From Vulcanimicrobiota bacterium (lineage in GTDB: Bacteria; Vulcanimicrobiota; Vulcanimicrobiia; Vulcanimicrobiales; Vulcanimicrobiaceae): DNA of 64,000 bases. Positions 5,259 through 12,666 of this stretch are shown here, in pieces. How positions within the stretch are numbered: position 1 is the first letter of the stretch; each line of letters opens with the position of its first letter. The notes below the pieces were generated by a model. That model saw nothing but the letters and a program-made list of their open reading frames with translations. It was not told where the DNA came from and did no database searches. The stretch is taken from contig DAHUZB010000005.1 in assembly GCA_027306785.1 (NCBI GenBank), forward strand, positions 1 through 64,000. Reading direction: 5' to 3'. A program made the translations under genes and the position numbers.

Positions 5259-5296
5259 CGTGTCTTCCGACACGCGTCGTGTCTTCCGACACGCGT
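5259..5296. repeat. Tandem duplicate 19-bp hairpin repeat
   Basis: Two exact head-to-tail copies (5259-5277 and 5278-5296) of CGTGTCTTCCGACACGCGT. Each copy folds into a 6-bp stem (CGTGTC/GACACG) with a TTCC loop. They lie between the rplJ leader and a dispersed repeat, upstream of the carbonic anhydrase gene, in non-coding DNA. Confidence 0.85.
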
Positions 5297-5298
5297 TA

Positions 5299-5321
5299 TG
5301 TCATCCTGAGCTTGTCGAAGG
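5299..5321 (-). repeat. Dispersed intergenic repeat, CTTCGACAAGCTCAGG type
   Basis: On the minus strand this reads CCTTCGACAAGCTCAGGATG followed by ACA. Three further copies of the same unit stand at 12429-12567. Short repeats of this type are common in spacers of many bacterial genomes. The rest of the spacer to 5463 holds two more small GC-rich palindromes (around 5342 and 5357) and no gene. Confidence 0.75.
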
Positions 5322-5463
5322 ACGAACGCACCTCGGTAGTCCCCTTGCGGGATTAAGGCCTTGCGGCCGGCTACGGTCTTCGGAGCCGTTGGTCAGAGTA
5401 CCACACGCGGCGCGCGAGCGCAAGCCGAAAGGCCGCCCCTTCACCCGAGCAGAACAGGCAGCC

Positions 5464-7071: not shown

Positions 7072-7173
7072 AAGTGCTTTTCGCCTCTTCCGGTAGTGCC
7101 ACCACCCGGAGTAGACTTTCGTCTAAGCTCTCATGTGAGGCTTCGTTCGCAGAACTTGATGTGGAGGTCTTTC

Positions 7174-8130
7174 TTGCGATCACTTACCACGCGTCTTCTT
7201 CCCACGATGGTCGCGGCATCGCTGCTCGCGGCATGTAGCGGCGGCAATTCCTCGATCCCGAGCGTCGCTCAACCCCAGGCGCATCCGCTGAGCCAGGGCG
7301 GCTTCCGCGCGACGAGCCAATTCGTCGCAGTCGATGACGCTCCGCAGGCAATCCATTTTATGCCGATCTCCGGTGCCGGCGGCCGCGCGACCGCGATGGC
7401 TCACGGCAGCGGTACGAGCGCCGGCAACCTGCTCTACGGCAACGGCCCCATTCAAACCGCACCGAAGCTCTACGTCGTCTACTGGGGTTCGGCATGGAAC
7501 GGCAGCGGCGACCCTGACGGCGTAAAGGCGCAGCTGAACAACTTCCTGAGCCACGTCGGAGGCACGACGTGGAACAGCACGGTCACCCAGTATTATCAGA
7601 CGAATCCGTCGGCGAACGCCGGCAATCCGGCGAACAACTTCGCAGGCTATTACGTCGATACGTCGAGCTCGCCGCCCAAGTCGCCGTCGCAGAGCCAGAT
7701 GGCCGCTGAAGCCGCGAAGGCCGCCGCGCACTTCGGCGATTACAGCGTGAACGCACAGTATGTGGTCGCGATGCCGCACGGCGTCTCGCCGTCGGGCTTC
7801 AAACGCAGCTACTGCGCCTATCACTCGACGACGACGGCCGGCGGATCGACGATCTCCTGGACGAATCTTCCGTATCTCCCCGACGCGGGCTCCGGTTGCG
7901 GTGCGGGCTCCGTGACGGGCAGCGTCCTCGACGGCGTCTCGATCGTCGAAGGGCACGAGATGGCCGAAGCCGAGACCGATCCGCAACCGAGCACCGGCTG
8001 GACGGATTCGTCGGGCGCCGAGATCGGCGATAAGTGCGCGTGGGTGAATCTGCAGAACACCGATCTCAACGGCACCTACTTCCCCACCCAACCGCTGTGG
8101 AGCAACGCCGTCTCCGGCTGCGTCCAGTAA
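7174..8130 (+). CDS. Lipoprotein with putative metalloprotease-like motif, copy 1
   Basis: 318 aa from a TTG start at 7174 with a good ribosome site (GGAGG at 7163-7167, 6 nt spacing). The lipobox LLAAC places the lipidated Cys at residue 21. The start was fixed by comparison with the paralogue, whose Cys is also residue 21. The conserved body contains PKLYVVYWGSAWNGSGDPDG, YYQTNP, PYLPDAGSGCG and VEGHEMAEAETDP (His261, Glu262, Glu265, Asp269), then GAEIGDKCAWVN. The H-E-x-x-E...D cluster resembles a zinc site; similar HE-x-AE-x-x-TDP motifs occur in EXORDIUM/PHI-1-like secreted proteins. Catalysis is unproven. A terminator hairpin follows. Confidence 0.75.
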   Translation: MRSLTTRLLPTMVAASLLAACSGGNSSIPSVAQPQAHPLSQGGFRATSQFVAVDDAPQAIHFMPISGAGGRATAMAHGSGTSAGNLLYGNGPIQTAPKLYVVYWGSAWNGSGDPDGVKAQLNNFLSHVGGTTWNSTVTQYYQTNPSANAGNPANNFAGYYVDTSSSPPKSPSQSQMAAEAAKAAAHFGDYSVNAQYVVAMPHGVSPSGFKRSYCAYHSTTTAGGSTISWTNLPYLPDAGSGCGAGSVTGSVLDGVSIVEGHEMAEAETDPQPSTGWTDSSGAEIGDKCAWVNLQNTDLNGTYFPTQPLWSNAVSGCVQ

Positions 8131-8157
8131 GACTCCCGCCTTCGTCATCGATGGCAA

Positions 8158-8187
8158 CGAGCCGCCGGCCTTACGACCGGCGGCTCG
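8158..8187 (+). terminator. Terminator hairpin after lipoprotein copy 1
   Basis: 11-bp stem CGAGCCGCCGG (8158-8168) with CCGGCGGCTCG (8177-8187), followed by CTTATC. Nearly the same hairpin ends the paralogue at 9336-9369, so gene and terminator were duplicated together. Confidence 0.75.
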
Positions 8188-8348
8188 CTTATCGAATCAC
8201 ACGATTCGCAGAGACGCTTGACGCACTACCCGAGCGCTGCATCGCCCTATGTGCTTTCCGCATCTTCCTGTGTTCCGATTCCCCGCGCTACGCTCGTCCC
8301 AGGGGTGGGCTGCACCCCGTACTTCCCAATGAAGTGGAGGTCTCTCAG

Positions 8349-9308
8349 GTGCGTTATTCATTTCTCCGATTGATCCCGGCCGTCATTGCGGCGTCGCTGC
8401 TTGCGGCCTGCGCGGGCGGCGGTACGACGCCCACGGTGCCGAGCGTCGTCCAGCCGCCGGTACAGCAATCCGGCGACTTCCGAGCGACCGGGCAGTTCAC
8501 CGCAATCGGCGACGCGCAAGAAGCGATTCGCTTCATGCCCACGGTCGATGTCTTCCAAGCCTACGGCGAGCGCGTGACGCCGCTTGCGCGCGGCGCGGCC
8601 GGATCGAACAACCTGCTCTACAACGGCGGCGTGATTCAGACGTCGCCGAAGCTGTACGTCGTCTATTGGGGCTCCGCCTGGAACGGCAGCGGCGACCCCG
8701 ACCACATGAAGGCCTATCTGAACAACTTCCTCTCGCACGTCGGCGGCACGTCGTGGAATTCCACGGTCACGCAGTATTACCAAACGAATCCGTCGGCACA
8801 CGCCGGAAATCCGGCAAACAACTTCGGCGGTTCGTACGTCGACACGTCGAGTTCACCGCCGAAGCGTCCGACGCAATCGCAGATGGCCAACGAGGCAAAG
8901 AAAGCCGAGGCGCATTTCGGCAATCATTCCGCGAGCGCGGAATATATCGTCGCCATGCCGCACGGCATCGTGCCGTCCGGTTTCAAGACGCAGTACTGTG
9001 CCTACCACAGCACGACGTCGGCCGGCGGCGGCACGATCTCGTGGACGAACTTACCCTACCTTCCGGATGCGGGCTCGGGCTGCGGCGCGAACTCGGTCTC
9101 GGGCGTGCTCGACGGCGTCTCGATCGTCGAAGGTCACGAGATGGCCGAATCCGAGACGGATCCGCAACTGGATGCCTGGTACGATGCGAGCGGTTCGGAG
9201 ATCGGCGATAAGTGCGCGTGGGTGAACCTTCGCAATACCGATCTCAACGGCACCTACTTCCCCACCCAACCGCTGTGGAGCAACTCCGCGGGCGGCTGCG
9301 TGCAGTAA
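8349..9308 (+). CDS. Lipoprotein with putative metalloprotease-like motif, copy 2
   Basis: 319 aa from a GTG start at 8349 (GGAGG at 8336-8340, 8 nt spacing). The lipobox LLAAC puts the lipidated Cys at residue 21, exactly as in copy 1. The two proteins are clearly paralogous over their whole length and share NFLSHVGGT, TVTQYYQTNP, YVDTSSSPP and NTDLNGTYFPTQPLWSN. The metal-site candidate is VEGHEMAESETDP with His263. Copy 2 lacks a few residues of copy 1 near GCGANSVSG. The pair sits between the rplKA and rplJL units. Each copy appears to have its own ribosome site and terminator, so separate expression is likely. Confidence 0.75.
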   Translation: MRYSFLRLIPAVIAASLLAACAGGGTTPTVPSVVQPPVQQSGDFRATGQFTAIGDAQEAIRFMPTVDVFQAYGERVTPLARGAAGSNNLLYNGGVIQTSPKLYVVYWGSAWNGSGDPDHMKAYLNNFLSHVGGTSWNSTVTQYYQTNPSAHAGNPANNFGGSYVDTSSSPPKRPTQSQMANEAKKAEAHFGNHSASAEYIVAMPHGIVPSGFKTQYCAYHSTTSAGGGTISWTNLPYLPDAGSGCGANSVSGVLDGVSIVEGHEMAESETDPQLDAWYDASGSEIGDKCAWVNLRNTDLNGTYFPTQPLWSNSAGGCVQ

Positions 9309-10096: not shown

Positions 10097-10518
10097 TATT
10101 CGACCTCCACGCCCATCGAGCGCGCCGTACCGGCGATGATCTTCTTCGCGGCGTCGATATCGTTCGCGTTGATGTCGGGCATCTTCACTTTCGCAATATC
10201 TTCGAGCTGCGCGTTCGTCAGCTTACCGACCTTGTTGCGGTTCGGCTCTTTGGATCCCGAGTCGATCTTCAGCGCCTGTTTGATCAGGAACGACGCCGGC
10301 GGCGTCTTCGTGATGAACGTGAACGTACGGTCTTCGAAGACCGTGATCTCGACCGGGATGATCATGCCTGCCTGCGAAGCGGTACGTTCGTTGTACTGCT
10401 TGCAGAAGTCCATGATGTTGAGAGAATACGGTCCGAGTGCGGGACCGATCGGCGGCGCGGGGGTCGCTTTGCCTGCCGGGATCTGTAGGCCGATCTTGCC
10501 TACGACCTTCTTTGCCAT
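10096..10518 (-). CDS. rplK: 50S ribosomal protein L11
   Basis: 140 aa from ATG at 10518, chosen because [20 protein letters not shown] is the canonical start and GGAGA lies 9 nt upstream; an ATG seven codons earlier is less likely. The proline-rich N-terminal domain contains [22 protein letters not shown], the thiostrepton/GTPase-centre region. The C-terminal domain binds 23S rRNA near position 1067. It is coupled to rplA. The 5' untranslated region contains a large palindromic element beginning 22 bp before the start codon. Confidence 0.96.
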
Positions 10519-10540
10519 GGGTTGTTGTCTCCGTTGCACC

Positions 10541-10687
10541 GAATCGGTTTGATCCGATTCGAATTTTGGAGACGCCCGCGTTTTCGCATCGTGCGAAAAC
10601 GCTACTGCCGGACTTTTCGCTCCCGCGCATCCTGCGCTCCGCGAAAAGCTCCGAGCCTCCCAAATTCGAATCGGATCAAACCGATTC
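10541..10687 (+). repeat. Palindromic structured element 1 (+ orientation)
   Basis: Outer arms of 26 bp are perfect inverted copies (10541-10566 and 10662-10687). Inside are a perfect 11-bp hairpin GCGTTTTCGCA/TGCGAAAACGC (10578-10588, 10592-10602) and a second stem CTTTTCGC/GCGAAAAG (around 10612 and 10641). The core GACGCCCGCGTTTT...AAAACGCTACTGCC recurs in element 2 on the other strand with compensatory stem changes. No reading frame is evident. It may be a mobile palindromic repeat or a structured leader of rplK. Confidence 0.8.
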
Positions 10688-10831
10688 TCCCCCCGTATAC
10701 AGGCTGTTCAGGTGTGGGGGTGTCCACCTGGCCAAACTCTGGTAGTCTACGGCAAGCCGAGCCCGCTTGTAAAGTGCATGGCTCGCATCCTGGGAACCGG
10801 GGTCGCATCCCGGGCTATCCACCCATCACGC
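10688..10831. other. Spacer between the two palindromic elements
   Basis: No gene seen. It holds a short stem CAGGTG/CACCTG around 10710-10730 and GC-rich sequence. A promoter for rplK on the minus strand would have to lie here or within the flanking elements, but I could not identify a convincing -10/-35 pair. Confidence 0.5.
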
Positions 10832-10997
10832 AAGCCGGGCTTTGGAGGTGTGGGATTCCTTCGGTGGACGGGGCTCTGAGAAATTCGCGAAGCCGGGACG
10901 GCGAGAGCGGATTTTCAGGCAGCAGCGTTTTTCCAAGGATGGAAAAACGCGGGCGTCCCGTCCGACGAAGGGAGCCCGCGCCTCCAAAGCCCGGCTT
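10832..10997 (-). repeat. Palindromic structured element 2 (minus orientation)
   Basis: Outer arms AAGCCGGGCTTTGGAGG (10832-10848) and its perfect complement (10981-10997). An inner perfect 11-bp hairpin GCGTTTTTCCA/TGGAAAAACGC spans 10925-10935 and 10940-10950, with further imperfect pairing (CTTCG..GGACGG around 10860 with CCGTCCGACGAAG around 10960). Read on the minus strand, its core GACGCCCGCGTTTTT...AAAAACGCTGCTGCC aligns with element 1. It ends 6 bp before the nusG stop codon, so it is transcribed as the nusG 3' region. Confidence 0.8.
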
Positions 10998-11003
10998 ACG
11001 CCC

Positions 11004-11702
11004 CTAAACTTTTTCGACTTGGAAGAATTCGAGCTCGACCGGGGTTTCTCGGCCGAAGATCGAGATGAGGGCGCGCAGGCGCTCCTTCTCGGGCTGGATC
11101 TCGTCGACGACGCCGGTGAAGTCGAAGAACGGTCCGCTCGTAACCTTGACGCGATCGCCCTTGGCGAAATCGATCTTCAGCTTGGGCGCCTCGATGCCCA
11201 TCTGCTTGAGGATCGTTTTGACTTCTTTCTCTTGCAGCGGTACCGGCTTTTCGCCGGGGCCGGGGCTGCCGACGAATCCGGTAACACCCTGCGTGTTACG
11301 CACGACGTACCACGACTGGTCGTCCATGATCATCTCGACGAGCACGTACCCCGGAAAGACTTTCTTCGGGGTAATCTTGCGCTTGCCGTCCTTGAACTCG
11401 ACTTCGTCCTCCATCGGGACGAGCACGCGGAAGATCTTATCCTGCATGCCCATCGAATGGATGCGGCGCTCGAGGTTGGCCTTGACTTTGTTCTCGTACC
11501 CGGAGTACGTGTGAATCACGAACCAGGTGCGGTCGTCTTTTTTCGCGGCGGCGGGGCGCTCGCGCGTCTCGCTCGGAGCGGACGCCGCTGCGTCATCCTC
11601 GACATCGTAGGCCGCGGCAAAGGGTCCGTCGTGGGTCGCCTGAGCGCTCTCGGTCGCGTCGGTCGCGTCGTTCCCGTCGTACTCGCGTTCGAATTCGGTC
11701 AT
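11004..11702 (-). CDS. nusG: Transcription termination/antitermination factor NusG
   Basis: 232 aa. An acidic, low-complexity N-terminal extension of about 57 residues precedes the NGN domain (RTWFVIHTYSGYENKVKANL, GYVLVEMIMDD, GVTGFVG). The C-terminal KOW domain follows (DFAKGDRVKVTSGPFFDFTG). NusG binds RNA polymerase and couples it to ribosomes or Rho. Typical NusG is about 180 aa; acidic extensions are known in some high-GC phyla. The start at 11702 (MTEFEREYDG) follows secE by 17 bp; the reading frame continues upstream through secE without function. secE-nusG order is standard. Confidence 0.95.
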   Translation of the reverse strand: MTEFEREYDGNDATDATESAQATHDGPFAAAYDVEDDAAASAPSETRERPAAAKKDDRTWFVIHTYSGYENKVKANLERRIHSMGMQDKIFRVLVPMEDEVEFKDGKRKITPKKVFPGYVLVEMIMDDQSWYVVRNTQGVTGFVGSPGPGEKPVPLQEKEVKTILKQMGIEAPKLKIDFAKGDRVKVTSGPFFDFTGVVDEIQPEKERLRALISIFGRETPVELEFFQVEKV

Positions 11703-12319: not shown

Positions 12320-12428
12320 CTCTCAGCCTACCACGAACATAAAGAAAACGGACTCCCGGTCCGTTCAGCCGAGAAAGAGTATCACACCCCAACGCCCCAA
12401 GCAAGGCCCTCTCCCACAATCATCCGCC

Positions 12429-12567
12429 CCCTTCGACACGCTCAGAGTGACACGGGCCCTTCGAGGAGCTGAGGGTGACACGCATCCCATCACTGCAGGC
12501 ATCCCTTGACGGCAGGGTTCGGGCGACCCGAAGCGAGGCCCGCCCTTCGAGGAGCTCAGGGTGACAC
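12429..12567 (+). repeat. Three copies of a 25-bp dispersed repeat
   Basis: Copies at 12429-12453, 12457-12481 and 12543-12567 follow the pattern CCCTTCGA-(CAC/GGA)-GCT-(C/G)AG(A/G)GTGACAC. A fourth, inverted copy is at 5299-5321. They fill the spacer between rpmG and tRNA-Arg (12320-12592), where I see no gene. Confidence 0.75.
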
Positions 12568-12592
12568 CGGGGAGCCTTGCGGGTAGACAATT

Positions 12593-12666
12593 TGCGCTCG
12601 GGCGGAATCGAACCGCCAACCTCGGCCTTAGGAGTGCCTTGCTCTATCCTATTGAGCTACGAGCGC
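12593..12666 (-). tRNA. tRNA-Arg (anticodon CCT)
   Basis: Minus-strand cloverleaf. Acceptor GCGCTCG/CGAGCGC is perfect, D arm GCTC..GAGC, T arm GGCGG-TTCGATT-CCGCC. The anticodon loop CTCCTAA gives CCT, decoding AGG. The anticodon stem AGGCA/GGCCG has only three Watson-Crick pairs, with A-G oppositions at 27-43 and 31-39. No 3' CCA is encoded and the discriminator is A. Probably functional, but the stem is odd. Confidence 0.85.

Follow-up and report, generated by a model that had tools for sequence, protein, structure and literature searches.

A dispersed family of ~147-bp palindromes with a shared three-way-junction core and variable, complementary arms in Candidatus Eremiobacterota

Several kinds of small palindrome are dispersed in bacterial genomes. 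CGTC-tagged REPs and RPEs are non-coding, consist of a single 8–9-bp stem within 20–40 bp, and lie mostly downstream of genes, though some copies are read in frame within genes, among them ones for replication and repair; the CGTC REPs have no known dedicated transposase (PMC3733652). Bacterial MITEs (ERIC, NEMIS, RUP, Nezha) are 70–300 bp long, end in terminal inverted repeats of 15–30 bp, and lie near genes (PMC3733652). Outside bacteria, palindromes in mitochondrial coding sequences of Nematomorpha have concerted, still-paired arms, for which the authors propose template switching (PMC6649704).

The family described here shares features with each of these systems. Like RPEs and CGTC REPs, it consists of small dispersed palindromes without their own coding capacity, with a possible CGTC tag, placement downstream of coding sequence, and in-frame insertion in a protein-coding gene (one locus, DnaE2-type), a likeness to RPEs drawn from their description. 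It differs in having three helices over ~147 bp instead of the single 20–40-bp stem-loop of REPs, hypervariable paired arms of fixed length, and a host in a different phylum. Size, terminal inverted repeats, and proximity to genes recall MITEs. MITE ends, however, are constant because a transposase reads them, whereas this family keeps only the complementarity of its ends, whose sequence varies from copy to copy: arms average 59% identity even where cores are ≥95% identical. The mitochondrial palindromes form no dispersed family with a conserved core; in the present family, a common core is joined to variable arms.

We analyzed a 64,000-nucleotide stretch of contig DAHUZB010000005.1 (the window), in which two elements lie between nusG and rplK; these genes and rplA were confirmed on the minus strand by NCBIfam. 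Element 1 (10541–10687, plus strand) has a 28-nt left outer arm (10541–10568) paired with the right outer arm (10660–10687), and a conserved core (10569–10659; GAGACGCCCGCG...GAGCCTC) that matches the family covariance model with 98.9 bits and is antisense to nusG–rplK. Within this core, hairpin 1 (10578–10602) is a perfect 11-bp stem with a 3-nt loop, and hairpin 2 (10607–10656) contains an internal loop. Element 2 (10832–10997) has the same parts on the minus strand, i.e., an arm adjoining the nusG stop codon (10960–10997), a core sense to nusG (10870–10959, 99.3 bits) with hairpin 1 (10925–10950; perfect 11-bp stem, 4-nt loop) and hairpin 2 (10873–10920), and an arm distal to nusG (10832–10869), the two arms pairing perfectly over their outermost 17 bp. 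The core common to both elements is 89–91 bp long and is enclosed by copy-specific paired arms. An earlier note on this DNA had described two homologous palindromes with perfect outer arms of 26 bp (element 1) and 17 bp (element 2), a perfect 11-bp hairpin in each, and cores in opposite orientation. All of this was confirmed: the cores align over 10571–10609 (plus) and 10957–10918 (minus), and one covariance model matches both. Both elements fold far more stably than dinucleotide shuffles (z = −14.9 for element 1 and −10.6 for element 2).

The architecture is fixed across the family. In 18 aligned cores, each copy forms a three-way junction of an outer stem of ~28–30 bp, the perfect 11-bp hairpin 1, and hairpin 2 with its internal loop; 98.7% of cells are paired, and 19 of 31 pairs show two-sided change, extending to the family the compensatory change that the earlier note had seen between two copies. 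Two-sided changes occur in all helices. Controls with the partner slid by 1–3 columns gave 3–8 pairs with two-sided change and 33–46% pairing; as the structure was drawn from the same 18 sequences, this comparison favors it somewhat, and the two-sided changes are the stronger point. Only 4 G.T were counted among ~910 pairs of hairpin 1. Beside this hairpin, within the larger fold, the core has a GACG without variation (CGTC on the opposite strand) and a CTRC with hardly any (opposite strand, GYAG). The mismatch counts used are those of hairpin 1 and the arms; a core-wide tally of A.C and G.T mixed alignment registers, and the tally for hairpin 2 was out of register too. As a separate observation, the complementary strand of the elements presents GGA loops, a candidate for a CsrA-like reading.

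The arms flanking the core have a median length of 30 bp (96 copies), and their pairing exceeded the 99th percentile of a control, in which the left arm of one copy was paired with the right arm of another, in 86 of 95 copies. For copies selected on positions 6–17 only, pairing stayed at ~0.9 to position 28 and dropped to ~0.5 by position 31 and ~0.3 by position 39, indicating that arm length is nearly fixed. Between copies of one genome, mean ungapped arm identity was 0.34 when cores were <80% identical and 0.59 when cores were ≥95% identical, and one pair with identical cores (L125 and L126) had arms only 59% identical. Since arm identity rises with core identity, the arms are inherited but change much more quickly than the core; a gapped comparison had first suggested that near-identical copies have unrelated arms, formed afresh from the target, a view dropped on the strength of this ungapped result. 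Arms evolve in concert: in ten orthologous comparisons, 47 positions had changed on both sides and were still paired (0–5 in slid controls), 42 had changed on one side, and 13 had changed on both sides and were unpaired in one copy. Arm mismatches on the core strand were A.C in 111 cases and G.T in 26 (47 copies vs 8, p = 8e-8, a value made optimistic by partial relatedness of the copies through descent). This roughly fourfold preponderance of A.C over G.T on the core strand, in the arms of 78 copies, held whatever the direction of the neighboring gene, for each gene context that offered more than a few mismatches.

Further copies were sought by blastn of the same genome, with a core pattern in relatives, and then with covariance models. 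The blastn search returned ~10 further copies, and the core pattern detected copies in relatives. With a first covariance model, the count was 15 copies for this genome and 14 and 5 for the two congeners, and 31 of 60 relatives gave matches; with a second, 74 of 149 genomes, mostly MAGs, of Candidatus Eremiobacterota did so, all in three families of one class, and the named records with matches include Candidatus Eremiobacterota. The earlier note had proposed such a model and named a lack of further copies or of stem conservation as the outcome that would count against its reading; both further copies and conserved stems were found. Pattern matches in MAGs labeled Phycisphaerae and Flavobacteriales (L229, L233) had no covariance model support and were discarded. 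No Rfam family matched at or above its gathering score, and low-threshold matches (MIR856 and others), being below those scores, were rejected; a literature search for Eremiobacterota together with palindromic or repetitive elements returned nothing relevant. This ~147-bp palindrome family is absent from the RNA library and literature searched. We read it as a new repeat family, REP/RPE/MITE-like in character, which adds to the repeats of a little-studied phylum and includes, within a polymerase gene, an insertion that is clearly translated.

Sense orientation of the gene to the left of the core prevailed (68 copies, against 18 with an antisense gene), and most stop codons lay 20–80 nt before the core, with gene directions and stops taken from a simple codon-position score and not from curated genes. 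Some copies are flanked by what we take, from sequence, to be the nuoF–nuoG and infB–rbfA junctions. One copy lies in frame inside the gene for a DnaE2-type error-prone polymerase in three species (G000, G001, and G002; one locus, 3 of 96 copies), the only coding insertion site seen, and most relatives lack the insertion at that point of the gene, i.e., it is truly absent. Here G002 has the core in the opposite direction to G000 and G001, with the arms keeping their place, and this is the only inversion at a clearly orthologous site; in a second case (L076 vs L108) the arms are unrelated, and the element may have inserted independently. Further sites lack the element in G002 or G022, although intergenic flanks often fail to align in such comparisons. 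The multicopy family, with 15 copies here and members in 74 of the phylum's 149 genomes, and lineage-specific sites, occupied in some genomes and unoccupied at the orthologous position in others, give good support to the earlier suggestion of a palindromic mobile element. No target-site duplication was evident in the site alignments inspected. Two of the unoccupied sites in G002 (L103, L107) are short palindromes, and at L111 (G000:C33:258871-259782) long arms are still paired around a mostly missing core, of which only CGGGCGTCCCCGCG remains, as though it had been lost from within the hairpin. Deletion, and not true absence of an insertion, may thus lie behind these three sites, which are short palindromes or arms without most of the core.

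From these sequence comparisons, we consider it likely that both elements of the nusG–rplK gap belong to a non-autonomous dispersed palindromic repeat of ~147 bp, with a three-way-junction core of 89–91 bp between terminal inverted repeats of ~28–30 bp, and with arms kept complementary mainly by DNA-level copying. One arm would be copied from the other, by template switching or hairpin-templated repair; and dispersal would depend on an enzyme acting in trans. Copies lie chiefly a short way past stop codons and in most cases in sense orientation, and an in-frame copy inside a gene can be tolerated. The concerted arms and the core inversion fit DNA template switching. In addition, arm base pairs are skewed (GC 756 vs CG 478; TA 336 vs AT 171), and this skew to G-C and T-A matches the signature of intrastrand template switching, to which such base-pair asymmetry has been attributed (PMC8794818). 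Arm homogenization and spacer inversion have been ascribed to one mechanism (PMC8604942), and concerted arms are documented in mitochondrial coding palindromes (PMC6649704). From the arm skew, the homogenized arms with an inverted spacer, and these published parallels, we infer template switching as the best-supported way in which the arms stay paired, in line with the mechanism acting on the fold that the earlier note had set beside selection. The A.C mismatches of the core strand are G.T pairs on the complementary strand, so that either the complementary strand folds (as single-stranded DNA or RNA) or a strand-specific mutation process is at work; plain template switching does not predict this strand-specific excess, which points to some additional constraint on how the complementary strand folds. 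More tentatively, and with rather low probability, the terminal stem could be largely rewritten around each transposition, one arm changing and the other being remade as its copy, leaving ends that are self-complementary, differ between copies, and tolerate G.T on one strand only. If so, recognition would be by shape and not by end sequence.

Alternatively, the family could be a structured RNA of 3′ UTRs and operon gaps (a REP-like mRNA stabilizer, processing site, or attenuator), with pairing selected on the folded transcript. The sense placement just behind stop codons (68 vs 18), the strong covariation, and the several copies in gaps within operons, e.g., infB–rbfA and nuoF–nuoG, would fit such a role, but it appears unlikely overall. 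Selection on the transcript should leave G.U as a tolerated intermediate; with G.U nearly absent in hairpin 1 and sense-strand arm mismatches being A.C, not G.U (37 vs 7 in context ++), host transcript folding is not what keeps the arms paired. Moreover, one copy is translated as part of a polymerase gene, and orientation is not fixed. Covariation alone is no proof of a functional RNA. The family offers ~100 natural copies of one palindrome that divide cleanly into a conserved portion and a portion that is only complementary; how long stems stay paired over evolution, whether by RNA selection or by DNA template switching, thereby becomes a testable question.

We also compared the family with REPs and REPINs mobilized by a RAYT (Y1) transposase and marked by GTAG or CGTC tags. 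Both are intergenic hairpins with a GTAG-like motif beside the hairpin, the invariant GACG (CGTC) and nearly invariant CTRC (GYAG) being placed next to hairpin 1, and the location downstream of genes with occasional in-gene copies resembles that of REPs and RPEs (PMC3733652). Membership in this class nevertheless seems quite improbable: four-base tags can arise by chance, the ~147-bp three-way junction is a larger and more complex fold than a single hairpin of 20–40 bp, and none of the copy-rich genomes G000, G001, G002, G036, and G008 has a Y1 transposase gene (PF01797). No mobilizing enzyme and no parent IS were found for the family.

Insertion of the core into palindromes already present, the arms then being old target stems, would account for the two unoccupied G002 sites that are short palindromes (L103, L107), yet we judge it very unlikely, considering the nearly fixed arm length of 28–30 bp, the inheritance of arms apparent from the rise of their identity with core identity (0.34 to 0.59), an arm-end motif in G036 that occurs beside cores and nowhere else in that genome, and the rarity of other long perfect palindromes in the window.

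Within the nusG–rplK gap itself, element 2 lies a few bp past the stop codon of nusG, and 22 bp separate the end of element 1 from the rplK ATG, as the earlier note had placed them. Its premise that this gap is normally short proved a weak baseline: a promoter-like site for rplKA (TTTACA-18-TAGACT, 10773–10744, minus strand) sits between the elements and is largely kept in two congeners, giving the gap a normal reason to exist. No intrinsic terminator, recognizable as a G+C stem with a T run behind it, was seen at 10500–11100. The two other roles that had been suggested, an RNA structure regulating L11/L1 and a terminator/antiterminator pair, found no support as a family function, given copies behind many unrelated genes and inside an open reading frame, arm mismatches that are A.C and not G.U in the sense transcript, and, for the latter role, no terminator-like site with a T run. 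That the pair evolved as a specific L11-operon regulator (L1 or NusG feedback, or an antiterminator pair) is hardly credible, for although element 1 lies between the promoter-like site and rplK and is the best conserved copy, arms included, among three congeners compared, homologous copies follow many unrelated genes, and G001 has no element 2, while G002 has it in tandem duplicate. Element 2 is an ordinary post-stop copy, and element 1, in the rplK leader, may have been co-opted there. In G002 (L091 2501-3016), the gap holds three elements, two of them being the tandem duplication, with a common arm.

The place of element 2 in the G001 gap (L083) holds copies of another short repeat, of the HPELVEG/LSLSKG type. 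This widespread repeat, of the form TGTCACCCTGAGCTTGTCGAAGGGTGACA, occurs in the window at 5260–5330 (in an open reading frame with CHPELVEGR) and at 12365–12619, and reads HPELVEG or LSLSKG in open reading frames. Repeats of this type resemble CGTC-type REPs and are also found in the DnaE2-type gene of G000 and G001. Elsewhere in the window, adjacent open reading frames at 7096–8130 and 8034–9308 encode similar proteins, an apparent tandem duplication.
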